A stretch of DNA of 36,695 nucleotides. Source: a virus. Shown here piece after piece: positions 5,101-36,695 of this stretch. Under the pieces are notes generated by a model. The model had not been told where the DNA came from. It saw only the letters and a list, made by a program, of their open reading frames with translations, and made no database searches. The position numbers and the translations under genes are program-made. Positions within the stretch are counted from its first letter, which is position 1, and every line of letters starts with the position of its first letter. The DNA lies in the IMG/VR virus record IMGVR_UViG_3300034120_001787, positions 1-36,695 of that record. The stretch is one strand, 5' to 3'.

Positions 5101-5709
5101 TCACCGCTGACCACACGTATTGATCCAGGTACCACAAACATCATTGACTTGTACGTGGTTACACAGGCCTATTACACAGCATATCAAAACTGGATTCGTG
5201 ACACCACTGGTACTGTACCTGAGCCCAGTGTGCCCACAATTGACGAGTTAAGCACGGCATATCAAGGCTTGCAGGACTACAAAATGATTTCTGACAACGT
5301 GGTCTTGAACTCAGTAAACTTCAAGCCCTTGTTTGGAGCCAAAGCAGCAGCACAGTTGCGAGCCACCATCAAGGTGATTCGTGCGCAAGGATCAACAGCG
5401 TCAACAAGTGAAATCAAGAGTTCAGTGATTGCTGAAATGAACACATATTTCAGCATTGACAAATGGAACTTTGGGGATACATTCTACTTCTCAGAGCTGG
5501 CAGCATACCTGCATCGTCAGTTGGGAACTATTATCAGTTCTGTGGTCCTGGTACCATTGGATCCACAAAAGAGTTTTGGTGACTTGTATGAGATTCGTTC
5601 AACTCCCAACGAAATATTCGTGAATGCAGCAGACATAACTAATATAGATGTGATTGAGGCTTTGACCAGCACCAATCTCCGAACAGCCCCTGGTAGCGGA
5701 GTAATTTAA
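2119..5709 (+). CDS. 6: gp6-like baseplate wedge protein (extended)
   Basis: The first ~130 residues match the conserved N-terminal region of T4-like gp6 / baseplate J-like proteins: 'SYDFETLRKSFVDYLRLYYP', then 'FIALLDIIAFMGQSLAFRTD' and 'DSVVRLANLVSYDPKR'. The conserved segment around 'REPIDAIKQRAPARYYTQNR' near residue 420 is the typical baseplate-J core, and the C-terminus ('SVVLVPLDP...NEIFVNAADI') is also typical. gp6 dimers form the heart of the wedge and join wedges into the baseplate ring. At 1196 aa it is nearly twice T4 gp6 (660 aa); the extra length includes a Gly/Thr-rich insert at residues ~534-584. Its TAA overlaps the next ATG by one base (TAATG), implying coupled translation. 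Confidence 0.9.
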   Translation: MAKTTRQTAIFGVEDWKQIYQTYREADFQSYDFETLRKSFVDYLRLYYPETFNDYIESSEFIALLDIIAFMGQSLAFRTDLNTRENYLDTAERRDSVVRLANLVSYDPKRNTASSGFLKVFNVTTTENVTDYNGINLSNVTVDWADPTNPDWQEQFTTIINAALVDSQRVGRPGNRQTILGVRTDEYAINLLPGFLPVVPYTATVDGVSMPFEAVTSTSVGRDYVYEPSPRANAPFNVLFRNDQLGFASANTGYFFAFKQGTLINTDFNLAERISNRTVNINVEGVNNEDRWLYQLDNVGNITREWEYVESVYTAAAEQQVELRPIYSTTSRTNDQITLVFGDGVFSEIPVGIFRCYTRASNGLEYIINPAEMQSVSIPISYTSRSGNLETITFTCGITQPVTNAQAREPIDAIKQRAPARYYTQNRMVNGEDYNLFPYTQYNSIIKSKALNRASIGTSRYLDLVDNTGKYSSTNSFSSDGALWENNILPTILFGWTNRNEIADFVTNSVQPQLTEATMKQFYYDNFPRVYTNAAPAGSFVVGQTYIIATVGTTNFIAVGAGDNNVGTAFIATGAGSGTGTAFVSVAGSTWQQSTTLANETTGYFKNSAGTAIPVGPSSGTDFKYVQVGSLIKFVAPIINGQPYYFDRNNRLQAGIPTRPDERTEIWASPQAIVGDGYNNGLGNLSSGAGPVTINNFVPTGAVVSEIIPLFVTDLPLSIEQQMGDQIELFRDFGLGYNNLTGTWYIITSTNLDQDAAWSDTNAGSTSGTNSDASWLVQFVVENQNYTVTFRGLAYYFGSVLQTRFFFYGDQLIYDSRTGTIIKDFINVLAMNTQPDDSAPLEGDVIMDIIGQPVESDGYVDDFQVLVSFRDSDNDGVPDNPDFFKEIVAPEVNDNQKLVFLQQTVDFDNLQRYLLVEEGIVNSDYATLDDIELVKSEWSPGQIFYAYDQVNNDGSVGAFYLLSINIAGVRTLVSQSGWIARTGRQDLYFQYRHNSPLTTRIDPGTTNIIDLYVVTQAYYTAYQNWIRDTTGTVPEPSVPTIDELSTAYQGLQDYKMISDNVVLNSVNFKPLFGAKAAAQLRATIKVIRAQGSTASTSEIKSSVIAEMNTYFSIDKWNFGDTFYFSELAAYLHRQLGTIISSVVLVPLDPQKSFGDLYEIRSTPNEIFVNAADITNIDVIEALTSTNLRTAPGSGVI
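3722..3870 (+). repeat. Gly/Thr-rich inserted module in gp6-like gene
   Basis: Residues ~534-584 follow the pattern 'GQTYIIATVGTTNF...VGTAFIATGAGSGTGTAF'. A related module sits near the C-terminus of the giant protein (about 19612-19755): 'GISYNISFLGTTNW ... AATGTGTGTAVQ'. From memory, modules of this shape recur in structural proteins of marine T4-like phages. It breaks the gp6 homology and looks like a shuffled cassette. Confidence 0.55.
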
Positions 5710-11700: not shown

Positions 11701-14700
11701 GTACTATTCTGTCAGCAGAATTACTGAGCCAGGCCAATCTTGGAAAAGAATCAGCAGACTACAAGATCTTTGAAAACTGGGCAGTTCAACGTGCTGTATA
11801 TGGAGCCAATGCCAACCGCAGCTTTGTTGAATTGCGCCTAAATCGCGCACTGTTGAATTCTAATCCAAGCTTGGTACAAGTGATTTTGCCACAGCAGTCA
11901 AGCCAAGCTGACCAAACAGTGTTGTTGAGCAACGTGTGGCGACAAAGCTACAAACTAACATCGCCTAATTTTTTACCCACCACCACCACCACAGTCACAG
12001 ACACTGCCTTGCCCACAGCTGGTTATGTGAATTTGGACGATGCGGACATTACTATATTCAGCCTAAACGACTTGTCGTCTATACAAGCTAATCTTGACGC
12101 AGTGTCAGTTGGGGCAACAGTATGGGCTGCCAAAGTCAACAACTACGACTGGAATATCTATCGTTGCGTACAAGTTCCTGGTTATATTGATCATGTGTGC
12201 GACAATCTTGACGGCACTAGTATCTGTAATTTTACTCAGCCACATGGTCTTGCAGTAGGCGACAAATTGATCATCAAATTTTTTGATTTTGAAATTGACG
12301 GAGTGTATGAAGTACTAGAAGTCACTGGTGTCAATACTCTAACCATTGCATACACCTTTACTAGCGCACAAAATCAAATCAATGGTACCGGCATTGGATT
12401 TACGTTGCAAACACAACGAGTAAGTCAACCCAGTGATATTTTGAATCTGCCATATGCAAATGAAATTCAAACTGGAAATAAGGTATGGGTTGACAACGCT
12501 GGCAACGGCCAGTGGGCCGTGCTGGAAAAACAAAATCAGTTCTCAGATGTTGTAGAATTAGCACCTGAGTTGCTGGATGCCACAGAACAATATGGTCAAA
12601 GTATTGCACAGGCTCGAACCCGCTTGGCTGCACTGGTTGGTAGTCCACGCTATGGATTTGCAAGTGGTACAGCAACGGGCGGTATCTATACCTATGTCAA
12701 GAACTTCTCTGGCAGTTATCAACCAGTAAGTCCTACAGACAGCGGTGATGCTATTCTTGTGTTGGGCGCAACAGGAGTTCGCGGATACGGTAATGCCGTG
12801 GACTTTGGTAATCAGACCTGGGCAGGCGCAGGCGCTAGCTTGAGTTTAGGTCCTGCTAGCGAAGCAGATGTTGGATATGCAGCAGTGATCTATCGTGATC
12901 CTGCCCTAGGCCAACCAGGCATAAACCCATATGCACAATGGCAATTGTTGACTCCTCCTGTCAGTGGCGATCGTATTTTGCCTGGGGAATTTGGATACAG
13001 CGTTGCAGTCAGCACAGACGAACACTGGATGTATATTGGCTCACCAGGGGTGAACAAAGTTCATGCATATGCTCTTGTAGATGTGCAAAATCAATTCATT
13101 AGAACGCGGGGCAACGGTGTTACTACCACTTATCAAATTGCCAATGCTATACAAATTGACAACAATCTTCAGTTGGAAGTCAGTGTCAACAGCAACACTC
13201 AGACTCTGGGTGTGGACTATGTTATAAACGGATTCTCTGAAGTGGTGTTTACAACACCCCCGCCTGTGGGAGAAGTAGTAGATATCAGTCGCAAAACTTT
13301 GCTGACAATAACCAACAGCGGAACACAGCAACTTGCTACGTCTTTGTTCACAGTAAACAACATTGACTCATTCTCGGTGCTGGCCAACGATGTGTTGTTG
13401 CGTCCCAACATTGACTACACCTACAACAACGGGACTGGTCTCTTGACCTGGATCAATGCTCCTGCAGGCGGTGTCACTATTGTTGTTCGCGCTGACAAGC
13501 ATTTTGTGTATGTTGACACTCTCACCGTGGGCGGACTTGCAGCAGATGCAAGATTTGGTCACAGCGTGTCAACTACCACAGACGGGCGTCAAGTCTTGAT
13601 TGGCTGTGCTGATCAGACAGTTGACGGCAAAGTAGAAGCAGGTAGTGTGTATGTGTTTGACCGCAACGTACAACGATTCATTTACGGCACAGAAACTTCG
13701 TCTGTAACATTTACTGTGCTGGGCGCAGTGACTGCTCCTGTAAGTGTAATTGTAAACAACCAGTTCTTGACCAATCAAGTTGACAGCACCATAAACGCAA
13801 ACAACACATTTACTGTGTCTGGTAATGACATTACCATACAAGATCCGTTGCAAGTTGGTGACGTGATTGAGATTGAAACCAATCAATTTGTATTGACGCA
13901 ACAAGTCAAACAACAAACAGTGAATGCATCTAATGCAATAGTTGATAATCCAATGGAGTTCACTAACTTTGGACAAGCTCTTGACATTTGCAGCTTTAAT
14001 TGCAGCTTGTATATTGGCGCACCACAGGACAGCACACAAGAATGGAAAGCAGGTAGCGTACAACGCAGTGTGAACCAAAGCAGAGTGTACGGTACCATTA
14101 CCGCCACAGTGGCCAATCCTGTACTGACTGCTGGACAGACCCTGCGAGTCAACAACATAGATGTTGCAGTACCTAACGCACCAAACAACACTGTAGTTGG
14201 TCTAGCCGATGCTATCAATAATCTAGTAACACTAGGCGGAGTACCAAACGTAACAGCATCTGTTAGTGCTACAGGCTTTTTGACTATCTCAGTCAAGAAT
14301 ACTGATTCAGCAGCCCCTGGCAACAAACTGCAAGTAGCACCGGGCTCATCAACAGGAAGTACAGTGTTTAGTGCTTTGGGATTCAACACTTTTGTGTTCA
14401 CACAAAGCATCTACAGTCCTTATCCTGTGGAGTTTGCTGCATTTGGCGCCAGTGTCAACATAGACGACACTGCTGACAACCTTGTGGTTGGCGCACCAGG
14501 TGGCACACAATACATTGTAACAGAGTTTGATGAAGGTGAAACTGACTTTGACGGTAACAGTACTATTTTCTTCAGTACCATTGTGCAGAGTGGTGTAGTA
14601 TACACTTACGATTACTTGCCTAGCGCAGGTGATTCTACATTGAATCCTGGCAAGTTTGTGTTTGGTCTACAAATTGCAGACAACGGCGCTGGCACTTACG

Positions 14701-17700
14701 ACAACTACGGCATTGCAGTGAACTACACTGATGGTGTGCTCATGGTAGGTGCTCCAGGCAACGATTTTGGTGACAGCAGTGCTGCCAACCGCGGGCGTGT
14801 GTTTGTGTTTGAAAATCCTGATCGTACACCAGCTTGGACTGTGATACGTGAACAACAACCTGTGGTAGATGTGCGCTTGCTCAACAGCGTGTTTGCATAC
14901 GACAGAATCACCAGTGCTCGTACAGAATTCTTTGACTTCTTTGATCCACTACAAGGCAAGATCCTTGGTGCAGCCAAACAAAACATCAATTACATTGGTG
15001 CAGTTGATCCAGCAGCATACAATTCAGGACCAGTTAACAATCAAGGCAACACATGGACCTCAAGTCGTGTGGGAGAAATTTGGTGGGATATCAGCACAGT
15101 GAGATTTGTTGATCCCAACCAAGACAGTATTGTTTACGCAAGTCGTCGTTGGGGACAAGTGTTTCCAGGCAGTAATGTAGACGTGTACCAGTGGATTGAA
15201 TCTACTGAGCCACCAGCCAGCTATACAGGTCCAGGAACACCGCTGAACGTGTTCTCATATTCAGTCAACAGCAGCCTCAGCAATGATGGCACATTCAACA
15301 CCTACTACTACTTCTGGGTGCGTGGTATCACCACTGTGGCCACCAACCGTGGCAAAACACTCAGTGCTGAAACTGTGGCCCGTTATATTGAAAATCCCAA
15401 AGCTAGTGGCATTCCCTACATAGCAGCAATCAATGCCAGCACAGTGGCCATATACAATGCAGGCACAGTAATTGAAGCAGAAGACACAATTCTCAGCATT
15501 GAGTTTGATCGCGAATTCACTAACGACAACGTTCACGTGGAATATGAGCTGATTGCACAAGACAAAGAAGACGGATTCTTGAGTGACGGCCTATATCGTA
15601 AACTACAAGACAGCTTCTGCGGAGTTGACACATTTGGTAACCTGGTGCCTGATCCCAACTTGAATGCAGCAGAACGATTTGGTGTGCAGTTCCGCCCACG
15701 ACAGTCAATGTTTGTAGATCGCTTTGAAGCACTGAAGAACTACATTGTTCGTGCCAATACCGTGCTGGCTCGTTTCCCAATTGTGGAAAATCGCAGCTTT
15801 GCATTGTTGAATTCCAGCGAGCCGTTGCCACCAGCTCAAACTGGTGCCACAGTGAACTGGAACCTGCAAGTGGCCAACTTGGAAATTCTCAGCTTCCAAA
15901 ACATTAATGCAGTGCCATTGGGCTACAAGTATCTGGTCACTAGCGACAGCAGCAACAACGGCTTGTGGACCATTTATGAAGTGCAATTGTCACAAGGTCC
16001 ATTGTTGGGCATTAAAGAATTAGTACTGGTTCGTGTGCAAAACTACGATACCAAGCGTTACTGGAACTATATCAATTGGTATCTGCTAGGATACAACCCC
16101 AGCACCAAAGTTGTGGCCGAAGTACCAAACTTCAGTACTCTAGAAACACTGAATCTACCAGTGGGATCAAGTGTGCTGGTCACTGCCAACGCACAAGGCA
16201 AGTTTGAAATTTACCTACGCACTGACATTGCATGGCAGCGTGTGGCCTTGCAGGATGGTACCATTGAGATAAGTGCGCAGATATACGATTATGCACTGGG
16301 ACGTTTTGGATTTGACGTTGAAGTGTTTGATGCTCAATACTTTGATCAAGAGCCAGTGATTGAAACTCGCAAAATCATTCAGGCCATCAACGAAGAACTG
16401 TTTGTTGATGACTTGTTGCTGGAACGAAACCGCAGTCTAGTGCTGATGTTCAACTATGTGCTGAGTGAATTTGCAGCACCTGAATGGCTTGTTAAGACAT
16501 CTTTGATTGATGTGGATCATAGAATTCGTGAACTAGCACCGTTCCAGAATTTCCGCCAAGACAATCAGGAATTTGTTCTGGACTATATTCAAGAAGTCAA
16601 ACCATATCACGTGCAAATTCGTGAGTTCAACCTGTTGTACAACGGTCAAGATCAGTACTTTGGCAGTTTAACAGACTTTGATGTGCCTGCATACTACGAT
16701 ACCAGCTTGACTGTGCCTCAATATATCAGCCCAATCTTGCTGCCATATGATGCTGGCACAGCTGAAGTAGACAACACCCTTAGTGACGCAGAAGCCAATT
16801 CTTTGGTCTGGCAAGCATGGCCATATAGCCAGTGGATTGCTAACTATTTGTTGACGCTGGACAGCATTACTCTTGTGAACCCTGGATCAGGCTTTACTGA
16901 TGTTCCTACAGTGACCATAGTTGGTGATGCTGCGGTACCTGCTACAGCACAGGCGTTTTTGAACTCATTGGGTGAGATTGCGTTCATTAGTGTGATCACT
17001 TCTGGATCAGGATACCGTGCAACACCAACTATTGTGTTTGATGGCGGCAACGGCACAGGAGCTCAAGCCTACGCTGTGATGGGCAACGACTTAGTTCGAA
17101 GCTTCAAGACAGTGATCAAGTATGACCGATATCAATATCAGTCATCAATTGTTGAATGGCAACCCAGCGGCTATTATGAAGATGGTACGCTTGTGCGATA
17201 TGACGATCAAGTATGGAGAGCTGCAAGTCCAGACTCCACAGCAGTATCTAGTGCAACATTTGAATTTGATCAATGGACTCGTGTTCCTGCTGCTAATTTG
17301 TCAGGAGTTGATCGTACTTCAGGTTACTATGTGGCTGGAGTCAACGAACCTGGCTTGGATCTGCCATTGCTGATTGACGGTATTGACTACCCAGGTGTGC
17401 AAGTGTTTGGTCGACAGTTTACATCCAATACAGATCTAGATGCTGTGTATTCCAGCAGTTTCCAAGACATTTATCTTGGCACAAGGTTCTCTGACATCAA
17501 TGTTGACGGTGGCGAGTTTATTGGACCATACGAAGGACACGCACCAGAAGAACTGGTCAACGGTGCAGAATATGACACAGTTGATATTCGTGTGTATACT
17601 CGTCCTGGTTCAGACTGGAGTTTGGAAGACAACGTTGCTGGCAATGACGGTCATGGATTTCAGTTAGTAAGTCGTCGCTACATATTTGATGATGATCAAC

Positions 17701-25757: not shown

Positions 25758-26670
25758 TGTTGCAGACCTAGACTGCATTTACTTAACATACGATGAACCA
25801 CAAAAAGAAGAGTTTTGGATCAAAATTCGCAACATGGTGCCTTGGGCGAAACGGGTGGATGGTGTCAAAGGTTCTGACGCGGCGCATAAAGCGGCCGCGG
25901 CTGTATCAGACACTGAACGGTTTGTACTCATCGACGGGGACAATCTCCCAGACCCAGCGTTTTTTAATCAAACGTTACATTTTCCTAGTGCGGAATATGA
26001 AAATGCTGTTTTCCGTTGGAGGGCTCGTAATCATGTCAACGGACTCATGTACGGCAACGGAGGGTTGAGTTCGTGGACTCGTGAGTTTGTGAACACCATG
26101 CAAACACATGAGGCATCTCTAGGGCAAGACGAAACTGATGTAGAGTTCTGTTTTGATCCACGTTACTGGCCCATGTATGATTGCTATTCAACCACATATC
26201 CCAATGGCTCGGCATTTCAAGCATGGCGTGCTGGCTTTCGTGAAGGTGTAAAAATGTGCCTGGATCGTGGTCGTAAGCCAACCACAGTCGAATTTTCAGA
26301 ACGTGTGCATCAACGCAATCTTGACAATCTCACTATATGGCACAACGTAGGTACAGACGCAGAATACGGTGAATGGGCCATTGCTGGCGCACGCCAGGGC
26401 ACTTATATGACCATGCTTACTAATTGGGATCATAAACAAGTGCAGTGGTTTGATGCCCTGGCTGAGTTGTGGGAGACGGTCAAAGACGGTCAACCTCGAC
26501 TGCTCAGCAACAGACTGGCTGAAGACCTGCACACACAACTGGCTCTGCCTATGGCCATACTGGAGCCAAATCAAAGTGCTTTCTTCAAACAACACTACAG
26601 ATCCAACTGGCACAATCAAGGCATCATGATTCGAGAGATTGATGTGATCCGTAAACAGGAAGGCTGGTAA
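25744..26670 (+). CDS. Putative GT-A-type glycosyltransferase, marine phage type (308 aa)
   Basis: The N-terminal part 'DCIYLTYDEPQKEEFWIKI' and 'AKRVDGVKGSDAAHKAA' leads to 'RFVLIDGDNLPDPAFF', with Asp64-Gly-Asp66 as the DxD-type motif of GT-A enzymes; this arrangement resembles family-2-like glycosyltransferases. 'YGNGGLSSWTREFV' and 'TDVEFCFD' follow as probable acceptor-side and catalytic loop elements. From memory, proteins with the 'DGVKG..AAHKAAA' pattern are frequent in T4-like marine phages. The C-terminal ~90 residues are a helical extension. It is the third GT-like gene in a row and its stop overlaps the start of the first radical SAM gene (TAATG). Confidence 0.6.
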   Translation: MKQVDVADLDCIYLTYDEPQKEEFWIKIRNMVPWAKRVDGVKGSDAAHKAAAAVSDTERFVLIDGDNLPDPAFFNQTLHFPSAEYENAVFRWRARNHVNGLMYGNGGLSSWTREFVNTMQTHEASLGQDETDVEFCFDPRYWPMYDCYSTTYPNGSAFQAWRAGFREGVKMCLDRGRKPTTVEFSERVHQRNLDNLTIWHNVGTDAEYGEWAIAGARQGTYMTMLTNWDHKQVQWFDALAELWETVKDGQPRLLSNRLAEDLHTQLALPMAILEPNQSAFFKQHYRSNWHNQGIMIREIDVIRKQEGW

Positions 26671-28055
26671 TGAGCAAAGGCGACCAAAGTCGCTTCATGC
26701 GATCAGCTGAGCAAATGAAACAGGACCTTGGTCCTGCATTGTGTTTGGCCAAATGGAAACAAGTGAGTTTTCACTTGCCCACAGGTCTCAACAACTCATG
26801 CTATCATCCTCCCTTGCACAAGATCACTGAGGCTGATCTTGCAAGGCCCGGCGGACTTCACAACACTGATCACAAAAAAGCTCAGCGTGTGATGATGCTG
26901 AAAAATGAAAAGCCCACAGAGTGTCAGTACTGTTGGAACATGGAAGCCAACGACAAACTCAGTGACCGCCACTATCGTTCAGGAGAACCCTGGGCCGCTG
27001 TGGACTTTGAACGGATTCGCAACTTAACAGGAACAGAAGATGACGTCATACCCAGCTATGTTGAAGTTAATTTTAACAACGCTTGTAACCTTAAGTGCAG
27101 TTATTGCTCTCCCCAGTTTAGCTCTAGCTGGGCCGACGAAGCTAACCGTTATGGCGCTTATGCTACTTCCACACCACATAATGCTCCTGAACACTTTACA
27201 GGATCTCGACGTGTTATTCCCGCTAGGGAACACAATCCCTATGTTGAAGCGTTTTGGGATTGGTGGCCCACACTGTATCCTGAGCTAGAACACTTTCGCA
27301 TGACCGGCGGCGAGCCGCTAATGGACAAGAATACCTATCGAGTATTTGACTATGTGTTGGATAATCCCAGTCCCAAGTTGCATTTAAACGTAACATCAAA
27401 CTTCTCAGTAGAAGATGCACTGTTTGAAAAATACTTGGGCTATGCCAAGCAGCTATGCACACCCAACATTGAACACTTCATGCAGTATGTGAGCTTGGAT
27501 TCAGGACGCGGCGCTCAAGCTGAATACATTAGACACGGCATGAGTGCTGATCGAGTGGTACGCAATGTAAATCGTTTCTTGACTGAAGTACCTACTCGCA
27601 ACAGTCTGACCTTTATCATTACCATGAACAATCTGGCAGTGACTGGCTTTCAAGACTACATGGAATGGATCCTGCAACTTAGACGCACTCACAGTACAAC
27701 CTATCAGCGTGTGTGGTTTGATACTCCTGTGCTGCGGGAACCTGCATGGCAAAGCTTGCAGTTGTTGCCCGAAAGCTATGCAGTAGAGCTGGAAAAGTCA
27801 CGTGACTTCATGCTGGCCAACATGACTACAGATGCCAACCCCTTGCACGGATTCAAGGATTACGAAGTGCAACGTCTAGAACGTGACATTGCCTGGATGC
27901 GAACAGGCCAAGGACAAGATCACACTGTGGCCAAAGCTGACTTCTATCGTTTTTTCTCAGAGCACGATCGTCGCAGAGGCACAGACTTTAAGAAAACGTT
28001 TCCTGAAATGGCCACCTGGTGGCACGAATGTGAATACTATGCTAGGGTCACATAA
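26670..28055 (+). CDS. Radical SAM protein with N-terminal twitch-like domain, copy 1 (461 aa)
   Basis: The radical SAM cluster motif is Cys139-x3-Cys143-x2-Cys146 ('NACNLKCSYC'), followed by the SAM-binding 'MTGGEPL' (Gly213-Pro216). An N-terminal Cys-rich segment (Cys25, 'SCYHPP' Cys44, 'CQYC' Cys85/88) resembles the twitch auxiliary-cluster region of 'N-twitch' radical SAM proteins. 'AEYIRHG' after a 'VSLDSG' strand, and the C-terminal 'HDRRRGTDFKKTFPEM', are shared with the other four copies. Such enzymes cleave SAM to a 5'-deoxyadenosyl radical; the substrate is unknown. This copy and the one at 29132 form a subclass with S-C-[YH]-H-P-P instead of the P/L-C-C seen in the other three. Confidence 0.88.
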   Translation: MSKGDQSRFMRSAEQMKQDLGPALCLAKWKQVSFHLPTGLNNSCYHPPLHKITEADLARPGGLHNTDHKKAQRVMMLKNEKPTECQYCWNMEANDKLSDRHYRSGEPWAAVDFERIRNLTGTEDDVIPSYVEVNFNNACNLKCSYCSPQFSSSWADEANRYGAYATSTPHNAPEHFTGSRRVIPAREHNPYVEAFWDWWPTLYPELEHFRMTGGEPLMDKNTYRVFDYVLDNPSPKLHLNVTSNFSVEDALFEKYLGYAKQLCTPNIEHFMQYVSLDSGRGAQAEYIRHGMSADRVVRNVNRFLTEVPTRNSLTFIITMNNLAVTGFQDYMEWILQLRRTHSTTYQRVWFDTPVLREPAWQSLQLLPESYAVELEKSRDFMLANMTTDANPLHGFKDYEVQRLERDIAWMRTGQGQDHTVAKADFYRFFSEHDRRRGTDFKKTFPEMATWWHECEYYARVT

Positions 28056-29145
28056 GATTGCAGTAGACACTTGGGCCGAAGTCTATGACTTGTTGAAGCC
28101 CTATTCCGACGAAGAATTCTGGCAATGGCCTGCTGAGTTAGATCCCAGCACTGTGTACATTGTGGGCCGTGTGCTGTTGAAACAGCACTGGACAGAAATC
28201 ACAGAGTGGGCTACTCAGTATCCAGGGAGCATTGTGTTTTCAAATCCTGCTGAAGGATCTGAAACTGTGTTGCTGCAACTCCGACGATTGCGTATTGCTG
28301 ACCATGTGCGCGATGGTCGCATTGGCTTGTTGACCTCTGGTGACTTAGAACCAGGATGGCGTTATTGCAAAACAGATTGCTACTTCTCTAACATAGTGGA
28401 GTACACAGAAAACAAGGCAGCACAGATTGAAGGTGCCTTGGAATACAAAGAACATCGTCCTTATGAATTTTTGTTCCTTAACGGACGATTGCGACCACAC
28501 CGCAAGTACCTAATGGATCATCTAAGAGCACAAGGCATGTTGTCACATGCACTGTGGACCAATTTGGGCAGTCAAGTCGAAATGGCATTTACGTCTGCGT
28601 TGGACACAGGCAAAACAGAACCTATACGTTTGTTGCCGCCTGAATACGAAATAGATCGTGCTGTGCCGCAGTTAAACGCAGTCCCTGACGCAGGCTTTGT
28701 CAAACATCAACTGTTCAACAACACCTGGGGCGATGCTATTGTGAATCATCGTTGCTACACAGACACCTGGTTCAGTTTGGTAACAGAAACCATTTTTGAT
28801 TATCCCTACACATTTCGTACAGAAAAGATCTACAAGCCTATTTTGATGGCACATCCATTTGTGGTTGCAGCCAATCGTGGATATTTGCGAGATCTACGCA
28901 ATGCAGGATTTCAAACATTTCACACATTATTAGACGAAAGCTACGACCAAATTGATTGTCCACAAGCCAGGAGTGAGCGTATAATAGATACAGTACGTGC
29001 CATAAGTTACTCGGGCTCTGGGGATTTCTGGAAGGCCAGCCGCGACATCTGTAAATACAATCAGCAACATCTTGTGGAATACAACCGGCAGCAACGGGCT
29101 GAGTTATCCACTTTACTAGAACAATACCTCAATGAACGATCTTGA
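28039..29145 (+). CDS. Putative glycosyltransferase (GT10/exostosin-like pattern), 368 aa
   Basis: The frame is open from 27883, but that would overlap the upstream radical SAM gene by 170 bases; the ATG at 28039 (MLGSHKIAV) overlaps it by only 17 and fits the operon. Key features are 'FLFLNGRLRPHRKYL' (146-160), 'FSLVTETIF' (245-253), 'TEKIYKPILMAHPFVV' (261-276) and 'GFQTFHTLLDESYD' (290-303). The V-T-E-x...T-E-K-x-x-K-P...P pattern resembles the donor-binding half of GT-B transferases such as fucosyltransferase or exostosin-like enzymes. From memory, proteins of this kind are widespread in marine phages. It lies between two radical SAM genes, so its product may act on the same substrate. 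Confidence 0.5.
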   Translation: MLGSHKIAVDTWAEVYDLLKPYSDEEFWQWPAELDPSTVYIVGRVLLKQHWTEITEWATQYPGSIVFSNPAEGSETVLLQLRRLRIADHVRDGRIGLLTSGDLEPGWRYCKTDCYFSNIVEYTENKAAQIEGALEYKEHRPYEFLFLNGRLRPHRKYLMDHLRAQGMLSHALWTNLGSQVEMAFTSALDTGKTEPIRLLPPEYEIDRAVPQLNAVPDAGFVKHQLFNNTWGDAIVNHRCYTDTWFSLVTETIFDYPYTFRTEKIYKPILMAHPFVVAANRGYLRDLRNAGFQTFHTLLDESYDQIDCPQARSERIIDTVRAISYSGSGDFWKASRDICKYNQQHLVEYNRQQRAELSTLLEQYLNERS

Positions 29146-30463
29146 TTTTCGCCAGCAAGTACTGGATACCTTGAGTCCTAGCTTTTGTGGGGCAAAGTGG
29201 TTTAATGCTACCATTTGGCTTGGTAGCGGCATGAGCACCAGCTGCCACCATCCGCCAGCTCATTTGGTGGACATTGATAAAGTCACAACCAACCCTAAGC
29301 TGCTGCACAATACACCGCAAAAGAAAGATGACCGCGCACGAATGATTGCAGGCGAGAGACCTGCAGGTTGCGAATACTGCTGGAAAATTGAAGACATGGG
29401 TCGAAGTGCTGTGAGTGATCGTGTGTACAAATCAAAAATATATCCCATTGCTGCATTAAAGGAAGCACATGAAACTCCCCCAGATCAAGACGTGGATCTA
29501 CGAACTCTTGAAATTTCTTTTGATCGGACCTGCCAGTTTGCTTGTAGTTACTGCAATCCTGCTTTTAGTAGTACATGGGTTAAAGATATTAGGAATAACG
29601 GACCCTTTATGGGCCTTGTGTCTGACGGTCGTAATCACTTTACGCATGAGCACTCTAGTGCTCAACTGTATCGTTTCGGGGAGACCAATCCGTATGTTGA
29701 AGCTTTTTTTGCGTGGTGGGAATCAGATCTTCATCACACTCTACAAGAATTGAGAATCACCGGAGGTGAGCCCTTGATGAGCGGCCACACTTGGAAACTG
29801 ATTGATTGGTTCCGCAACAACCCAGGACGCAGTAACACACGATTGGCCATTAACTCAAATCTAGGTGCCGATGTAGACGTAGATCGATTGTTGGATTCAA
29901 TACAGGGACTGGATGTGGATATCTATACAAGTCAAGAAGCCGTGGGTGTTCAAGCTGAATACATACGTGACGGTCTAGACTATGCTGCATGGCAAGCCAA
30001 CGTGGAAAAGATCTTGGCCAGCGGTCGTGTGCGTACCTTGCACTTTATGGGCACAATCAATGCACTGTGTTTGCCTAGTCTAACAGATCATTTGCGCTAT
30101 CTATTAGAACTAAAGCAACGTTACGGACGTAACGCAGTAAGTTACACACTGAACATTTTGAGATTTCCTAGTTTTCAAAGTGCGCTGGTCATGCCACATC
30201 AACTACGTGCTAGATTTGCTGCAGAACTAAAAGAACTGCACTACCGCAATCAACGCAACCCACTGTTTCATGAACACGAACTAGATCATGTACAGCGGCT
30301 AATAGACTACTTGGATGTGGTTGAAACACCGCACTCGGAAGCGTTTGATCTTCCCAAGTTACTAAATGATTTTGCACAGTTCTTTTCACAATACGATCAA
30401 CGTCGTGGCAAAGACTTTGCTAGAACATTTCCCAAATTAAAAGAATGGTACAATGGCCTATAA
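29132..30463 (+). CDS. Radical SAM protein with N-terminal twitch-like domain, copy 2 (443 aa)
   Basis: The cluster motif is Cys134-x3-Cys138-x2-Cys141 ('TCQFACSYC'), followed by 'ITGGEPL' (211-214 GGEP). The N-terminal segment has Cys19, 'SCHHPP' (Cys38) and 'CEYCW' (Cys80/83). 'AEYIRDGLDYAAW' and the C-terminal 'YDQRRGKDFARTFPKL' match copy 1, its closest relative here. The cysteine set is complete, so an active enzyme is likely. It overlaps the upstream GT-like gene by 14 bases and the downstream gene by 11. Substrate unknown; the neighbourhood suggests sugar or peptide modification. Confidence 0.87.
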   Translation: MNDLDFRQQVLDTLSPSFCGAKWFNATIWLGSGMSTSCHHPPAHLVDIDKVTTNPKLLHNTPQKKDDRARMIAGERPAGCEYCWKIEDMGRSAVSDRVYKSKIYPIAALKEAHETPPDQDVDLRTLEISFDRTCQFACSYCNPAFSSTWVKDIRNNGPFMGLVSDGRNHFTHEHSSAQLYRFGETNPYVEAFFAWWESDLHHTLQELRITGGEPLMSGHTWKLIDWFRNNPGRSNTRLAINSNLGADVDVDRLLDSIQGLDVDIYTSQEAVGVQAEYIRDGLDYAAWQANVEKILASGRVRTLHFMGTINALCLPSLTDHLRYLLELKQRYGRNAVSYTLNILRFPSFQSALVMPHQLRARFAAELKELHYRNQRNPLFHEHELDHVQRLIDYLDVVETPHSEAFDLPKLLNDFAQFFSQYDQRRGKDFARTFPKLKEWYNGL

Positions 30464-31708
30464 TTACAACTCCACAGACCTAGTGAAACCCACTAGATTA
30501 AATGAACGTGAGCAATTTTTGCTCAAAGAATCCAAGACCTTTTGCATGTATCCTTGGATTCATTTACACGCCATTCCCACTGGTGAAGCTTATCCCTGCT
30601 GCCATTCGGTAAACTGTGTCGCGGTGGGCAACGTAAAAAACAACACTTTAGAGGAAATTTGGACAGCTGAACCCATGCAGACTCTGCGTGATGACATGCT
30701 AAATGAACGACCTAATGCAACTTGTCAACGCTGCTACGAGCAAGAAGAGTCAGGATTCTTTAGTGGCAGACGCAGTGCTAACAAGCATCACGGGCATCAC
30801 ATTAAAAAATTAGAAAAAAACCCGTTTGAAATGACGTACTGGGATATTCGTTTCAGTAACTTGTGTAATCTTAGTTGTCGTAGTTGTGGGCATATGTTAG
30901 TTCAAGCTGGTATCAAGACCAGGCCAAACTAGCCGGTGGCAACTGGAAAGACAAAAACAAAGTATTGAACTATGCTGGTAGTACTGAACTAGACATGTGG
31001 GAACAGCTGACACCGCATTTGGATTATGTAGAGCAAATTTATTTTGCAGGTGGAGAACCACTGCTTATGATCGAACACTACAACATCTTAGAAGAACTAT
31101 TAAAGCGTGGACGTACAAACGTGCGACTAATTTACAATACTAATTTCACGCACACTGACTTAAAAGGCCGCAGTGTATTTGAATACTGGAAACAGTTTGA
31201 CAGTGTGGCTGTAGGCGCCAGCCTAGATGCATCAGGCGCACGTGGTGAATACATACGCAAGGGCACAGACTGGTCGGTGATAGAGCAAAACCGCAGGGAC
31301 ATGCTGGCCATCTGCCCCGACGTGGACTTTTACATCAGCCCTACATTAAGCATAATGAACGCATATCATTTGGCAGATTTTCATCGAGACTGGGTTGAGC
31401 AGGGTCTAATCCTTCCCCAAGGTCTCAATGTAAATATCTTGCAAGATCCTGCTCATTATCGAATTGACATTGCTCCTGCAGATTACAAAGCAGAATTAAC
31501 TGACAAATGGCAAAGTCATCTTGAGTGGTTGCGTCCACAAGATCGGTTACAGCGAGCCACAGTGGGATTTGAGTCAGCTATTCAGTTCATGATGCAGACT
31601 GACAATACCCACTTGATAGATACCTTCTGGCGCAAGACACATGAATTGGATACTATTAGAAAAGAAAACATCTTAGATATAATTCCTGAACTGGCCGCAC
31701 TGAAGTAA
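30453..31708 (+). pseudogene. Radical SAM protein copy 3, broken by a one-base frameshift
   Basis: The first part (159 aa from ATG 30453) has Cys31, 'YPCC' (49-50), 'CQRC' (91/94) and the cluster motif Cys138-x3-Cys142-x2-Cys145 ('LCNLSCRSC'). It runs out of frame just after 'CGHM'. The homologous frame continues without interruption from 'SSSWYQDQAKLAGG' near 30899 through 'FAGGEPL', 'GEYIRKG' and the C-terminal 'LDTIRK...IPEL' to 31708. Comparison with copy 5 ('CGDMLSSSW') shows that one base is missing around 30897-30899. It may be a sequencing error, a true inactivation or a frameshift used in expression; no classic slippery heptamer is seen. Restored length would be about 418 aa. Confidence 0.85.
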
Positions 31709-31924: not shown

Positions 31925-33142
31925 ATGAATATACCACACAATAAATTTTGTGTACTACCTTGGATCAGCTTGGAAGCCAGCCCTGTAGGTACTGTAAGAC
32001 CTTGCTGTCTGGCCGACGATGAAATAGTGGACAATAGCGGCAACAAGTTTGAATTGTTGACTGCCGACTTTGCTGACATTCAAAACAGCAATCACATGAC
32101 CTCTTTGCGACAACAGTTTCTTGACGGCAAACAACCCCAAACTTGTAGAAAGTGCTGGAATGAAGAACGTGCTGGCCGCACCAGCAAACGCATGCACACT
32201 TTAGACCGAATGAAACACATGAACATCAGCAGTGAATGGACTGCTGATGCTAAACCTCTAATGTTCCTGGATCTCAAGTTGGGCAACATCTGCAACTTGA
32301 AATGTCGCATTTGTGGTTCTTGGTCAAGCAGTCAATTTGCCACAGAAGAAATCAATCAGTTGCCCAGAGAAGAACAAAAGCAATCGTTTGCCTATCAGAT
32401 GTTGCGTGCTGGTGCCTGGCCCAAAGAAAATGAAAGCTTTTGGCAGCAGATTAACGATTGCTTGAATGATATTCGATACATTGAATTCACAGGCGGTGAG
32501 CCATTCATGATTGAGCAGCATTTTGCCATGCTGCAAGGTATTGTAGATCGTGGTATTGCGCATCAAGTTGAAATACACTACAACACCAACGGCACACATT
32601 ATCCTGAACAGGCCATTGAAATTTGGAAGCATTTCAAAACAGTAGAGATAGCATTCAGCATTGATGACTTAGGCGCTAGATTTGAATATCAACGCAGCAA
32701 CGCAGTGTGGTCTGAAGTGGTATTCAATATTGATCGTTTCCGTTTACTCAGGGAAGACTATCCCAATATTCAATTACAGTGTTGCAGCACAGTGAATGTG
32801 TTCAATGTACGATATATTGATCAATTGGCCAATTGGATTGCTATTCAAGATTTTAACTTTGTGTACTGGAACATGATGCATGATGCTTGGTACTTCAGCA
32901 TTGCGACCCTGCCTGAGTCTGCCAAGACCGACATTATATTGCACTTAGAATCAGCTAACATTCCGTCACAGTGGCGTGAAGAATTTGATCGTATCTGTGA
33001 CTTCATGCGCCGGGGTGCATCAACTGATGGATTCATGCTGCGAATGAAAGTTCGTGATCTAGATCGCAAGCGTGGACAAAATTTAGCCACAGTGGAGCCA
33101 GAGTTTGCTGCCTTGATTGAATATGACTACAACAAAGCCTGA
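31925..33142 (+). CDS. Radical SAM protein with N-terminal twitch-like domain, copy 4 (405 aa)
   Basis: The N-terminal segment is 'FCVLPWISLEASPVGTVRPC' (Cys9, Cys27-28), then 'TCRKCW' (Cys74/77), the standard N-twitch pattern. The radical SAM motif is Cys123-x3-Cys127-x2-Cys130 ('ICNLKCRIC') and GGEP is at 190-193. 'FEYQRSNAVWSE' replaces the 'EYIRxG' of the others, a distinctive change. The C-terminus 'LDRKRGQNLATVEPEFAALI' fits the shared tail motif. An AAAAGGA ribosome-binding site lies before the ATG, and this is one of the few non-overlapping starts in the operon. The enzyme looks complete; substrate unknown. Confidence 0.88.
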   Translation: MNIPHNKFCVLPWISLEASPVGTVRPCCLADDEIVDNSGNKFELLTADFADIQNSNHMTSLRQQFLDGKQPQTCRKCWNEERAGRTSKRMHTLDRMKHMNISSEWTADAKPLMFLDLKLGNICNLKCRICGSWSSSQFATEEINQLPREEQKQSFAYQMLRAGAWPKENESFWQQINDCLNDIRYIEFTGGEPFMIEQHFAMLQGIVDRGIAHQVEIHYNTNGTHYPEQAIEIWKHFKTVEIAFSIDDLGARFEYQRSNAVWSEVVFNIDRFRLLREDYPNIQLQCCSTVNVFNVRYIDQLANWIAIQDFNFVYWNMMHDAWYFSIATLPESAKTDIILHLESANIPSQWREEFDRICDFMRRGASTDGFMLRMKVRDLDRKRGQNLATVEPEFAALIEYDYNKA

Positions 33143-34421
33143 TACATTGTGCCTTGCGCCATGGACGCATACCTATCTTTCGCCACAGACTGAGCGGCGA
33201 TTGTGTTGCGCCAGCCGCGAACCTGCACAGAACTTTGAACAGTACATAGATACCAGCGCAGGCACAGGCCGGTATATCCCTGTAACACTGGAGCAACACT
33301 GGAACAGTGAGCATATGCGAAGTGTTCGTCGTAGAATGATGGCCGGAGAAACCTTGCCTGAGTGCGATGTATGCAATTCAAAACTACTGAACACATCAGT
33401 GTACAGGGATTATTTTGGACACCTGTTCGGACACAAATTATCGGAAGTATATGCCACAACTGATGTCAGTGGAGAGACCACAATGCAGCCTGTTAGCTGG
33501 GATTATAGGTTCAGCAACCTGTGTAACTTTAAGTGCAGAACCTGCGGCGACATGCTATCGTCGTCATGGGAGACCGAAGAAAAGACTCAAGACATGGTTA
33601 ATTGGGACAATCCAAAAAACAATTGGATGGTGCCCAGTATACGACAGCAAATCACACAGTTTCAAGATAATCAAATTGAACAAGAATTCAGTGACGCTGT
33701 GGATCAGCATCGAGTAGAAGAAATATACTGGGTCGGCGGCGAGCCCTTGATGTATGAACAACACTGGCGCTATATGCGTCGAATTGTAGAACTAGGAGAT
33801 GGAGGCAGAGTTTATGCTAGATACAACACTAACCTTAGCAGAATTAATTACAGGGGCACTAATCTATACAGTGATATCCTGGCGCATGTTCGTGACTGGC
33901 AAATCTGTGCCAGCATTGACGGAACAGGAATCACCGGTGAATATATTCGAACTGGCCTGGACTACCCCACCTTTTTAAAGAACTTTGAAGAAGGTCTTCA
34001 ATATCAACGGCACCGCAGGCAAATGCGATTGGATTTTACACTCACACTACCAGGAATGTTTGAAGTTGATGCTATACAACGCCTGGCTCAAACATATGAT
34101 GTGGAACTGTTGAGCAAGGTGATGTTCAGCTTTGACCCTAGTATTGTAATGAGTCCGTTGGCTCTGCCTCGTGAATTGTTGGATCCTTGGTTGGATGAAT
34201 TGATTGCTGAATCTACAGCAGCCAGTATGCGAGAAGTATTGACCCAATTGAAGTCACGACCCACATTTGGCGAACAATGGCCTGATACATATCGCACAGA
34301 GCTTGCTCGTGGCAAGGCTCGTGTGTTAAAATTAGAAAGCATACGCACAGCGCCAACTTCAATGGCACAAATTTTAAGTGCTAGACCAGCTGTGAAAGAA
34401 TGGTGGGATCAAATTGACTAA
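33123..34421 (+). CDS. Radical SAM protein with N-terminal twitch-like domain, copy 5 (432 aa)
   Basis: The ATG at 33123 (MTTTKPD) is preferred over a TTG two codons upstream; it overlaps the previous gene by 20 bases. Counting from that ATG, the N-terminal cysteines are Cys10, Cys28-29 and Cys81/84 ('ECDVC'), the cluster motif is Cys134-x3-Cys138-x2-Cys141 ('LCNFKCRTC'), and GGEP is at 205-208 ('WVGGEPL'). 'CASIDGTG...GEYIRTGLDY' matches the other copies. The tail 'LESIRTAPTS...ARPAVKEWW' is diverged from the D-x-x-R-G form. A ~20-residue insertion follows the CC pair ('TSAGTGRYIP' region), and about 40 residues are added between the cluster motif and GGEP. Substrate unknown. Confidence 0.87.
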   Translation: MTTTKPDTLCLAPWTHTYLSPQTERRLCCASREPAQNFEQYIDTSAGTGRYIPVTLEQHWNSEHMRSVRRRMMAGETLPECDVCNSKLLNTSVYRDYFGHLFGHKLSEVYATTDVSGETTMQPVSWDYRFSNLCNFKCRTCGDMLSSSWETEEKTQDMVNWDNPKNNWMVPSIRQQITQFQDNQIEQEFSDAVDQHRVEEIYWVGGEPLMYEQHWRYMRRIVELGDGGRVYARYNTNLSRINYRGTNLYSDILAHVRDWQICASIDGTGITGEYIRTGLDYPTFLKNFEEGLQYQRHRRQMRLDFTLTLPGMFEVDAIQRLAQTYDVELLSKVMFSFDPSIVMSPLALPRELLDPWLDELIAESTAASMREVLTQLKSRPTFGEQWPDTYRTELARGKARVLKLESIRTAPTSMAQILSARPAVKEWWDQID

Positions 34422-35457
34422 ACAAATCACAATTACATTGCGAAGCAGTCGCACTGGCAGTTTGTTGCCAGTGTACATTGACGTATACAACAACAGCTTG
34501 AGTCGACGCTGGCTCTCTGCACTAACTGATTTGGTGCAGAATCAGTATCATCTGGAAAAAAACTATTGCTGGTTGGGCTGGACCGAAAGCGAACGCACAG
34601 CCGAACACATTTGCGGAGAAATTAATCGCAGCATAAATGCTGTGAATCAGGCCAATCTGGGCTATCGTATTGACTGTCCAGACTATGATGTGGCGTCAGT
34701 AATACAATCAGACTTGGACATCAATCACGAACGAATGAATTGGCTGCACCGATATTTTGAAGACCTGCAAGGTGTATCTGGAGCAATGAGTCCTTACTAT
34801 ACCGCAGCAGATGACGCTACCAGATGGCATATTCGCCAATTAAATTTGCTGTGTCACGAATTAGAAACTCTTGTGCTCAGTATGCGTAAGGCTGTGCAAG
34901 CACCTGAATGGCGTCGTCCCAGTCAACTGATGTGTTGGTTGCAAGCACCTCGATTCGAGCTTGAACCTGAAGACTACGAACTGTTTGGTATTGAAACAAT
35001 CAATCGGCAACTGGGTGGAGTATATGTGGGTGTAAACAAAGCCGTGGGTAAGGCTCATTGGGAAGTTTTTTGCGACGAAGGTCGCGACAGCAGACTTAGT
35101 GAGTTAACTACAACTTCTCTGCGAGCACAAACACAGGCAGCTGGAGATTTTGATATTGAATGGGCCCGTGATCCCGGTGCATATCATTGGCAGCAAAAAA
35201 AATTAGCAGAGTTTAGAACTTGGCTTGCACAAAACGGATTCGACCCCGACGACAAGAGTTTGACCATAGGGCATCCCAAAGTAGCGCAAGTCAACTTGCT
35301 CAAGAGCTTTGGTACTACAGACTACGAAAAAATATGGGCCCAACTAGCGCACCATCTAGATGTGTATAAAATTCAAGTGGGTAATACTGAAGCTACATAC
35401 ACATACAACTGGAGCGATCCAGACTATGCTGAACAGCAGATAAAGGAACTAAAATGA
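34414..35457 (+). CDS. Conserved phage protein, unknown function (347 aa)
   Basis: The start is TTG at 34414, overlapping the radical SAM stop by 8 bases; no nearby ATG in this frame fits. The first ~120 residues ('ITLRSSRTGSLLPVYIDVYN', 'KNYCWLGW', 'HICGEINRSI') look alpha/beta, and a helical middle contains a His- and Glu-rich stretch ('LHRYFEDLQG', 'LNLLCHELETL'). The end has 'LTIGHPKVAQVNLLKSFG' and 'NTEATYTYNWSDPDYAEQQI'. From memory, similar proteins occur in marine T4-like phages, but I do not know a function. No radical SAM motif and no DxD motif are visible. Its TGA overlaps the next ATG. Confidence 0.65.
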   Translation: MTKQITITLRSSRTGSLLPVYIDVYNNSLSRRWLSALTDLVQNQYHLEKNYCWLGWTESERTAEHICGEINRSINAVNQANLGYRIDCPDYDVASVIQSDLDINHERMNWLHRYFEDLQGVSGAMSPYYTAADDATRWHIRQLNLLCHELETLVLSMRKAVQAPEWRRPSQLMCWLQAPRFELEPEDYELFGIETINRQLGGVYVGVNKAVGKAHWEVFCDEGRDSRLSELTTTSLRAQTQAAGDFDIEWARDPGAYHWQQKKLAEFRTWLAQNGFDPDDKSLTIGHPKVAQVNLLKSFGTTDYEKIWAQLAHHLDVYKIQVGNTEATYTYNWSDPDYAEQQIKELK

Positions 35458-35555
35458 ACTGGATCAAAAGATTATGGGCACGAATCACTCTAGAAATTCG
35501 TTATCGCAAAAAACTCAAAGAGTTAAGAAAGCGTGATCCGTTTATTTACAAATGA
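35454..35555 (+). CDS. 33-aa cationic amphipathic mini-protein
   Basis: This ORF of 33 codons plus stop is linked by ATGA overlaps at both ends: its ATG overlaps the stop of the 347-aa gene, and its TGA overlaps the ATG of the carbamoyltransferase. It contains many Lys/Arg and starts MNWIKRLWARI, forming a likely amphipathic helix, then ends 'KRDPFIYK'. The double overlap leaves no other way to fill the gap and makes it a probable gene. A similar tiny protein ending DPFIYK may exist in marine T4-like phages, from memory and with low certainty. Function unknown; it could be a membrane- or nucleic-acid-binding peptide or, speculatively, a substrate of the nearby enzymes. Confidence 0.65.
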   Translation: MNWIKRLWARITLEIRYRKKLKELRKRDPFIYK

Positions 35556-36695
35556 ATATACTAGGAATATCAGCTGGGTTTCATGATGCCGCAGCCACAG
35601 TGTTGTCGCCGCAAGGCGATATCCTGTTTGCTGGCCATAGTGAACGCTACAGCAAGAAAAAAAATGATGCTGACATCTGTTTGGAACTGTTGAATGAAGT
35701 AGACATGAGCACAGTAGGCACCATTGCCTACTATGAGCGTCCTTGGCTCAAACAGCTACGACAACTGTATTCAGGTCAAGGTGTTGAATGGAATAAAATA
35801 ACCACTCGCCAAGTACTAGAAAAGCAGTTAGGCTACAACAGAATTAGTGGACGCAAGTTAACGTCAACCAATCATCACTTGAGTCATGCAGCAGGTGGTT
35901 TTCAAACCAGCCCATTTGATCGTGCCACTGTGGTGGTAATCGATGCTGTAGGCGAATTTGATACTATAACAATATGGGCAGCAGAATATGATAAATTGGG
36001 CAAAGCAAATTATAAAAAACTGTGGAGCCAGCGTTATCCGCATAGCATCGGACTCTTTTATTCAGCAGCGACTGGCCGCGTTGGTCTACGCCCACTAGAC
36101 GAAGAATACATCTTGATGGGCATGGCCGCATATGGTGAACGTGGCTTTGGTGATCTCATGAAACAGGATCTCGTGGCAGACGATTGGAACATTAGGTTTC
36201 GTGAAAATTTGCACACTGGTCTCGAACAAAAATATCTTGGCCACGTAGACGACATAGACATTGCTGCCGGAGCACAGGATCTAGCAGAAGACCTGATCAT
36301 GAATGTGATGGCTCGTGCTAGAGGGCATGGCTGGAGTCGCAATCTTGTGTATGCTGGCGGGGTTGCATTGAATTGTAGTGCCAACAGGAGGTTGGGTGAA
36401 CTATTTGATAACATTTGGATTATGCCTTGTCCTGGTGATGCTGGCAGTAGTTTGGGCGCCGCCGCAATGGCTTATGGTGGTAGGATTGATTGGCGTGATG
36501 CTTTTCTGGGCCATGATATTGGCGGTGCTTACCCTGTTAATGCCATTTTGGATGAGCTTGTGTCTCATTGTATTGTTGGTGTTGCTAGCGGCAGGGCTGA
36601 GTTTGGTCCGAGATCACTAGGCAATCGTAGTTTGTTGGCCGATCCCCGCGGCCCTGATATAAAGAATCAAGTAAATGGAATCAAACGTAGACAAC
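35552..36695 (+). CDS. NodU/CmcH-type O-carbamoyltransferase, 3'-truncated by window
   Basis: The frame is open from ATG 35552 to the last base (381 codons visible). It begins 'ILGISAGFHDAAATVLSPQG' and 'GHSERYSKKKNDAD', the family's ATP/carbamoyl-binding start. 'NHHLSHA' (107-113) is the metal-binding His motif, followed by 'DAVGEFDT', 'MGMAAYGE', 'YAGGVALNCSAN' (267-278), 'CPGDAGSSLGAA' and 'EFGPRSLGNRSLLADPRG' (350-367). Family members transfer a carbamoyl group from carbamoyl phosphate to a sugar or other hydroxyl via carbamoyl-AMP. The stretch between 'AAAMAYGG' and 'EFGPR' is shorter than is usual. It is coupled to the mini-protein by ATGA. With the upstream GT-like genes it suggests decoration of a glycan. 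Confidence 0.9.
   Translation, partial: MNILGISAGFHDAAATVLSPQGDILFAGHSERYSKKKNDADICLELLNEVDMSTVGTIAYYERPWLKQLRQLYSGQGVEWNKITTRQVLEKQLGYNRISGRKLTSTNHHLSHAAGGFQTSPFDRATVVVIDAVGEFDTITIWAAEYDKLGKANYKKLWSQRYPHSIGLFYSAATGRVGLRPLDEEYILMGMAAYGERGFGDLMKQDLVADDWNIRFRENLHTGLEQKYLGHVDDIDIAAGAQDLAEDLIMNVMARARGHGWSRNLVYAGGVALNCSANRRLGELFDNIWIMPCPGDAGSSLGAAAMAYGGRIDWRDAFLGHDIGGAYPVNAILDELVSHCIVGVASGRAEFGPRSLGNRSLLADPRGPDIKNQVNGIKRRQ

Follow-up and report, generated by a model that had tools for sequence, protein, structure and literature searches.

A conserved phage microprotein with a DPFIYK tail and its genomic linkage to a NodU/TobZ-type carbamoyltransferase

The known carbamoyltransferases (CTs) of the NodU/TobZ family act on small molecules, and CTs recur in aquatic T4-like phages, where their substrates are mostly unknown. 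The N-terminal part of the CT is Kae1-like, and Kae1 enzymes (Kae1/KEOPS-type complexes) work with small partners; to our knowledge, no small protein partner has been described for the NodU/TobZ-type family. The cyanophages S-SSM5, P-SSM2, S-SSM7, S-CAM1, S-CAM3 and S-MS29 are T4-like phages that encode a CT, as is the case here, and in some of them sugar-modification genes adjoin the CT gene. The 5-hydroxymethylcytosine (5hmC) carbamoyltransferase is likewise a phage-derived CT of the same superfamily (PMC8670742).

Here we describe a microprotein whose constant genomic partner is a phage O-carbamoyltransferase of the NodU/TobZ type (phrog_1601, 'Nol-like carbamoyltransferase'; PF02543/PF16861). 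The original prediction for this DNA singled out the peptide and did not name this partner. The microprotein family is strongly conserved in uncultivated phages and apparently undescribed; no description of the peptide was found in the open-access literature searched.

The small ORF and its surroundings

The window, that is, the whole stretch of DNA analysed here, is a single virus record of 36,695 bases, a fragment (36.7 kb) of the viral genome. A run of genes late in the window encodes radical SAM proteins, a GT-B-like protein, a 347-aa protein (hereafter U347), the small ORF (33 codons; its coordinates include the stop) and a CT (Table 1). The small ORF begins with ATG at 35454 and ends with TGA at 35553-35555; the U347 ORF ends at 35457, and the CT ORF starts at 35552, inside the stop codon of the small ORF, so that the reported ATGA overlaps on both sides are confirmed. 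No other plus-strand ORF of 20-60 codons in the window overlaps ORFs of at least 100 aa by ATGA on both sides. A Shine-Dalgarno-like AAGGA precedes it, and none is seen in the 25 nt upstream of the CT ATG. The peptide was described originally as basic, free of Cys and ending in DPFIYK, which holds: its computed net charge is +9, and it contains no Cys.

Table 1. Features of the window, with positions counted from its first base
Feature	Position	Strand	Basis or remark
T4-like baseplate gene, gp25-like	1688-2062		
T4-like baseplate gene, wedge-like	2119-5709		
Radical SAM protein	26670-28055	+	PHROG 8.4e-11; Pfam below cut-off
GT-B-fold glycosyltransferase-like protein (modelled), 368 aa	28039-29145	+	AF2 model and structure comparison
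Radical SAM protein	29132-30463	+	PHROG 1.4e-6; Pfam below cut-off
Radical SAM-type gene, split	30453-31708	+	two overlapping frames, 30453-30932 and 30884-31708
Radical SAM protein	31925-33142	+	SPASM domain N-terminal to core
Radical SAM protein	33117-34421	+	Radical_SAM and N-terminal SPASM, both below Pfam cut-off; PHROG 1.1e-5
U347, family unassigned	34414-35457	+	stop overlaps peptide start (ATGA)
AAGGA, Shine-Dalgarno-like	35443-35447	+	sequence; 6 nt 5' of peptide ATG
Basic microprotein gene, 33 aa	35454-35555	+	encodes MNWIKRLWARITLEIRYRKKLKELRKRDPFIYK; conserved tail KELRKRDPFIYK
NodU/TobZ-like CT, N-terminal part and start of C-terminal part	35552-36694	+	Pfam, PHROG and PDB relatives

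The CT, which is truncated by the end of the window, matches PF02543 (3.5e-38), PF16861 (1.3e-12) and phrog_1601 (1.5e-46), and its relatives in the PDB include GdmN, TobZ and decarbamoylnovobiocin carbamoyltransferase. The upstream neighbour U347 yields an AF2 model with a mean pLDDT of 86, which showed no clear fold when compared with the PDB (best E 0.18 in one search); in a second structure comparison, the best Z was 8.0, with cyclophilins among the rows at 7.6-7.9 and no chain standing out. A search of the phage collection with U347 gave two chance-level matches only. The protein is conserved, with a mean column identity of 70% in 44 sequences.

Further upstream, the protein at 28039-29145, listed as an ORF from GTG 27883 and more likely to start at ATG 28039, models as a GT-B fold: the AF2 model has a mean pLDDT of 81, the top Foldseek match is an alpha-1,3-fucosyltransferase (E 0.013), and many GT-B enzymes align to it in VIA-align with Z scores of 11-13 across 262-300 residues. 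No Pfam match (the longer frame was queried) or NCBIfam match was found for it. This GT-B-like family is large in these phages, with tandem copies in some loci, for example, L298 and L330.

The peptide had been placed just after five radical SAM genes; the number stands only if the split gene is counted as one, and U347 lies between those genes and the peptide. The split, with a SPASM match in the first part (the profile search covered 30453-30932), is either a sequencing error or a genuine frameshift. SPASM-type matches are N-terminal in 30453-30932 (the first part of the split gene), 31925-33142 and 33117-34421 (a match below the cut-off), and lie 5' of the radical SAM core where a core is seen; the usual order is the reverse, with the radical SAM core before SPASM. 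Immediately 3' of the baseplate genes, positions 5709-19985 form a single 4758-aa ORF.

Conservation and extent of the microprotein family

The peptide is present in 80 of 80 loci collected through relatives of U347 (the best 80 of 135 viral candidates) and in 80 of 80 collected through relatives of the CT (the best 80 of 192). Many contigs are shared among the locus sets used here, including those found by pattern, and the sets are therefore not independent. The CT follows downstream in 79 of the U347-relative loci, and the remaining one ends too early. By a count from the listing, the start of the peptide has the same offset of -4 to the upstream gene in 68 of these 80 loci; in the others, it is slightly shifted or lies behind an inserted ORF. 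In two peptides of the CT set (L226 and L227), DPFIY is the terminus. The original prediction would have been refuted if relatives with both neighbours had lost the frame; no such loss was seen, a result that favours a gene. The proposed check of codon-level conservation points the same way: among 96 distinct DNA versions from the U347 and CT loci, the 22 codons that run up to the Tyr have a mean entropy of 0.44 bits at the first codon position, 0.27 at the second and 1.08 at the third; the versions were collected with the motif [KR].DP[FY][IL]Y, so that the invariance of those residues is not independent evidence. Because the frame is present in all of the relatives in both sets and variation is far greater at its third codon positions than at the first two, this tiny and easily missed ORF is a real gene that evolves under purifying selection.

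The peptide belongs to a wider family of basic proteins, mostly of 30-50 aa, with DPFIYK at or near the end. A DNA pattern for DPFIYK followed by a stop codon (pattern I) recovered at least 120 viral stretches, nearly all of which are ends of short basic ORFs. A stricter motif kept 112 of 120 peptides; among the 8 dropped loci, L082 and L112 are chance-like, L094 is cut by the end of the stretch, and L087, L142, L143, L156 and L160 hold diverged copies. The tallies of neighbour contexts used another regular expression that dropped a partly different set of 8 loci. Pattern II, which encodes KRDPFIYK followed by a non-T base, recovered 103 further viral stretches (group II), namely, 102 short frames in which one or two residues (NH, NF, SF, NV or H) follow DPFIYK, and one longer protein. 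After the choice of starts, group I together with the U347 and CT sets comprises 178 distinct peptides (median 33 aa, range 30-44, charge +9) and group II comprises 80 (median 39 aa, range 34-50, charge +10). The common part consists of Y/F-11, L/I-7, E-5, L-4, [RK]-3, K-2, R-1 and DPFIYK, and the N-terminal half is variable. The tail variants seen (DPFIYR, DPYLYK, DPYIYK, DPFIY and DPYIYEE) all keep the Tyr, with search motifs that allowed few alternatives. The window ORF is a typical member, stand-alone, basic and within the range of about 30-50 aa, with a tail like [LI]xEL[RK]KRDPFIYK and a CT on the same contig (35552-36694).

Among 84,980 species genomes of bacteria and archaea, a scan with a slightly longer pattern gave two matches, both on MAG contigs, and on one of these (L401) the gene order is radical SAM, peptide, an ORF read as SGNH-like, CT. 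For the 5-6 members tried, Pfam, PHROG and NCBIfam gave no significant match (best E 0.035, inconsistent among members), family profiles having little power on 33-42 aa, and one group-II peptide had no match among PDB sequences. The suggested tBLASTn search gave nothing: neither the 33-aa window peptide nor a 40-aa relative matched any of 50,697 phage records, probably because the low-complexity filter hides such peptides, given that one of these records, MH319727, contains a diverged copy.

Linkage to the carbamoyltransferase

Among the 112 pattern-I peptides, which were found regardless of their neighbours, 96 have a CT on the same strand at most 4 kb downstream. At 4 loci, fewer than 600 bases are left, and at 12 no CT is nearby; 9 of these 12 contigs carry a CT, mostly just past the examined stretch, and the other 3 are fragments of 16-42 kb. 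By a slightly different rule from that behind the count of 96, the CT starts at most 30 nt from the peptide stop in 66 cases; in 10 the distance is 31-400 nt, and in 20 it is larger. The peptide stop overlaps the start of the next ORF in 73 of 106 distinct pattern-I peptides. The absence of such overlaps in group II (0 of 85) counts against a role of the peptide as an accessory of the CT, as do the frequencies of strict start overlap with the upstream ORF (22 of 106 in pattern I and 17 of 85 in group II).

A CT is adjacent in 18 of 103 group-II loci by profile search and in 22 by clustering, and is carried by 18 of 20 group-II contigs tested, which were chosen mostly for length; 5 of these 18 CTs lie in the peptide locus or about 3 kb from it and 13 lie at least 39 kb away. 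Because the CT is distant in 13 of the 18 CT-bearing contigs, the link is not one of adjacency alone. Some of the distant CTs adjoin an ORF that, from its sequence, we take to encode a gp55 sigma factor. For the frequency of CTs in group II, there is no matched control; by our own count from a published table, 5 of 16 cyanophages encode a CT (PMC3037559). The gene order differs as well, the peptide being 5' of the CT in group I and 3' of it in 17 of the 18 CT-adjacent group-II loci, which implies that the peptide is not a mere leader.

The surrounding genes are diverse. In pattern I, a gp61-like primase precedes and a DnaB-like helicase follows, or the context consists of U347, GDSL-like or radical SAM genes; Pfam supports the SGNH/GDSL assignment for cluster C1 of group I only. 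The immediate neighbours in most group-II loci are glycosyltransferase- or transketolase-like genes, not a CT; homologs of the GT-B-like protein are frequent, and epimerase, transketolase/E1-like and DUF6734 genes also occur. These neighbourhoods suggest that the CT may act in the decoration of sugars or small molecules.

A set of loci anchored on the baseplate protein of the window consisted of 20 of 80 loci, on contigs of at least 28.9 kb; CT and peptide occur together in 8 and both are missing in 12. This co-occurrence (Fisher 7.9e-6) is meaningless as a control: the 12 negative contigs, three of which resemble copies of one genome, end 2-33 kb after the baseplate gene, and the peptide lies 31-35 kb after that gene in the 8 positive ones. 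All 8 contigs with at least 38.9 kb downstream of the baseplate gene carry CT and peptide, these contigs having already been found through the U347 or CT searches.

In a phylogenetic tree of 41 CTs, where group II is represented by CTs adjacent to peptides (without the distant CTs L407-L410), the peptide-linked CTs form two supported clades, group I (100/99) and group II (100/99). The CT of phage C48C1, which has no peptide motif, falls inside the group-I clade, a further point against an accessory role. Seven cyanophage or marine CTs without the peptide are placed apart from the peptide-linked clades, and three further CTs, the published 5hmC carbamoyltransferase and those of Mosig and of a faecal phage, are on long branches. 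When 14 named phage records were searched whole with an exact pattern, the motif was detected in MH319727; the matches in S-SM2 and P-TIM68 sit in 25-27-aa frames without a basic helix. In the data examined, the peptide is nearly always accompanied by a CT, but a CT does not imply the peptide.

At 15 loci (L088, L099, L101, L105, L110, L114, L116, L130, L162, L167, L176, L183, L191, L192 and L193), the adjacent CT homolog has 312-343 aa and consists of the N-terminal Kae1-like part only. The SERYS and EYILMGMAAYG motifs are changed in these proteins and HHxxHAA is kept; to judge by these sequences, they are likely to be pseudoenzymes. They adjoin primase and/or helicase genes. Two of these contigs, the longest at 78 and 108 kb, encode another CT elsewhere, one with the C-terminal domain; none was found in the other 13 (up to 35 kb). 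The retention of the peptide beside a CT without a C-terminal domain also argues against a partnership with the enzyme. Group-I CTs end about 15 residues before group-II CTs, which end in ..VIYKK or similar. The possibility that the peptide replaces the missing C-terminal strand of group-I CTs was rejected: group-II CTs keep the strand and yet have the peptide, and C48C1 lacks both.

Possible roles of the microprotein and comparison with known systems

We tentatively propose that the peptide is a conserved phage microprotein that serves as a small accessory partner in the CT pathway, with a basic helix and a docking tail; the probability that we assign to this proposal, roughly 0.45, was lowered to that level because the baseplate control is uninformative. 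The N-terminal half would usually be a basic, amphipathic helix with an anchoring or spacing function. A tail that is conserved while the N-terminus varies and is mostly amphipathic resembles a docking element, so that the stretch with Y/F-11, L/I-7 and L-4 together with DPFIYK might bind one conserved partner, most likely the CT itself or an enzyme acting in its modification pathway; because the group-II neighbours are mostly not CTs, the partner could also be another shared protein. Translation of the CT probably re-initiates after the peptide, with both proteins made together, since no ribosome-binding site is seen before the CT and it starts inside the peptide stop. The CT itself would carbamoylate a product of the cluster, either a sugar or another small molecule. 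Action on nucleic acid has been shown for one CT, which was active without a partner (PMC8670742), a counter-case weakened by its great distance from the peptide-linked CTs.

In a stronger form, which we consider improbable, the peptide would be the obligate partner of a phage-specific class of CTs. At its boldest, this reading makes the conserved Tyr/Lys tail the acceptor or primer for the carbamoylated product, and in lineages with a decayed CT, the peptide and the Kae1-like pseudoenzyme would form a regulatory complex encoded between primase and helicase genes.

A doubtful but plausible alternative is that the peptide is a membrane-anchoring adaptor of a phage glycan pathway: an amphipathic N-terminal helix would lie on the inner membrane and the tail would recruit the CT, a glycosyltransferase and other enzymes for building or decorating a glycan of the surface or the virion. 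The group-II neighbourhoods with epimerase, transketolase/E1-like, DUF6734 and GT-B-like genes are compatible with such a role, as is the hydrophobic moment of the N-terminal 14 residues, which exceeds 0.5 in 80% of group I and 70% of group II, compared with 29% and 36% of shuffles, and is 0.55 in the window peptide. The membrane or nucleic-acid binding that had been suggested for the peptide is thus possible, but since the N-termini of some group-II peptides (L318, L329, L372 and L387) are nearly all charged, membrane binding cannot be general. The primase-CT-helicase context, moreover, is no glycan cluster. The adaptor also finds some support in a natural fusion: in L397, a 303-aa protein (7739-8647, minus strand) ends in TRLEDLRKRDPFIYKNYRNKDEK, evidence that a larger protein can carry the tail. 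We read this protein as SGNH-like, and it has no significant Pfam match, only weak DUF matches; a homolog in L379 (8163-8987, minus strand), 42% identical to it, is without the tail, and a free peptide is encoded on that contig. This fusion is the only one among 283 distinct motif-bearing frames (at least 2 of which are chance occurrences), and a dedicated scan for fusions revealed no new gene, its matches being this contig again and, on a second contig, a 68-residue fragment.

Many small phage proteins act in host takeover or against host defences (reviewed in PMC11323111), and the peptide could be another of these, for example, one that inhibits a host enzyme, and travel with the CT by chance. 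Binding to a conserved host protein would fit the conserved tail, but an independent takeover gene would not be expected to pair with the CT in distant phages, frequently with overlapping genes, and we regard this explanation as unlikely.

Slightly less credible still is a substrate or acceptor peptide, in which the tail offers its Tyr (or Lys) for carbamoylation, glycosylation or modification by a radical SAM enzyme, such that the peptide would be a RiPP-like precursor or a primer. The tail is the most conserved part, its Tyr is retained in the variants seen (where the motifs are restrictive), and SPASM-type radical SAM genes are close to the peptide in the window. However, among 12 peptide-bearing contigs, which were chosen mostly for length and may be fragments, only 2 gave a match to the one SPASM model used, including 1 of the 10 that have the primase context; the tail also ends a larger protein, the peptide has no leader-core layout, and the known targets of this CT family are small molecules. 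The proposal that the peptide is a substrate of the radical SAM enzymes is accordingly unlikely to hold as a general role.

The peptide, being strongly basic, might instead bring DNA or RNA to a nucleic-acid-modifying CT that makes 5-carbamoyloxymethylcytosine; a phage-derived CT performs this reaction in vitro (PMC8670742), and in one context the CT gene lies between primase and helicase genes. We find this very improbable. The published enzyme was active alone (PMC8670742) and is very distant from the peptide-linked CTs (end branch 3.56, with its own placement uncertain). A role in 5hmC-DNA is unlikely because a thymidylate synthase/dCMP hydroxymethylase homolog is present in only 5 of 30 peptide-bearing contigs (78-374 kb, chosen mostly for length). 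Finally, a translational-coupling leader of irrelevant amino-acid sequence, suggested by the overlap with the CT start and by the lack of a visible ribosome-binding site before the CT, is hardly tenable, being already contradicted by the purifying selection on amino acids and by group II, where the peptide is 3' of the CT or far from it.

A conserved microprotein that travels with the CT could be tagged to pull out the pathway, could serve as a marker for complete clusters, and could be tried as a helper when enzymes of the CT pathway look inactive alone. It is also an example of a conserved gene that escapes notice; in one CT study, the gene-length setting of 110 nt exceeds the length of the peptide gene (PMC8670742).

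Compared with the 5hmC system, 25 of the 30 peptide-bearing contigs yielded no companion of the dCMP-hydroxymethylase type, and the 5hmC carbamoyltransferase lies outside the peptide-linked CT clades, on a very long branch. The CTs of the T4-like cyanophages form a clade separate from the peptide-linked CTs, and a microprotein of this family was not found with the exact pattern DP[FY]IY, which can miss diverged copies, in the whole cyanophage genomes scanned. Radical SAM peptide substrates such as PqqA and the mycofactocin precursors resemble the peptide in being short ORFs near SPASM-type radical SAM genes and in having a conserved C-terminal Tyr; unlike them, the peptide has SPASM in only 2 of 12 contigs, and its tail is also present on the 303-aa protein. 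A microprotein partner for the CT would, purely by analogy, fit the Kae1/KEOPS precedent.
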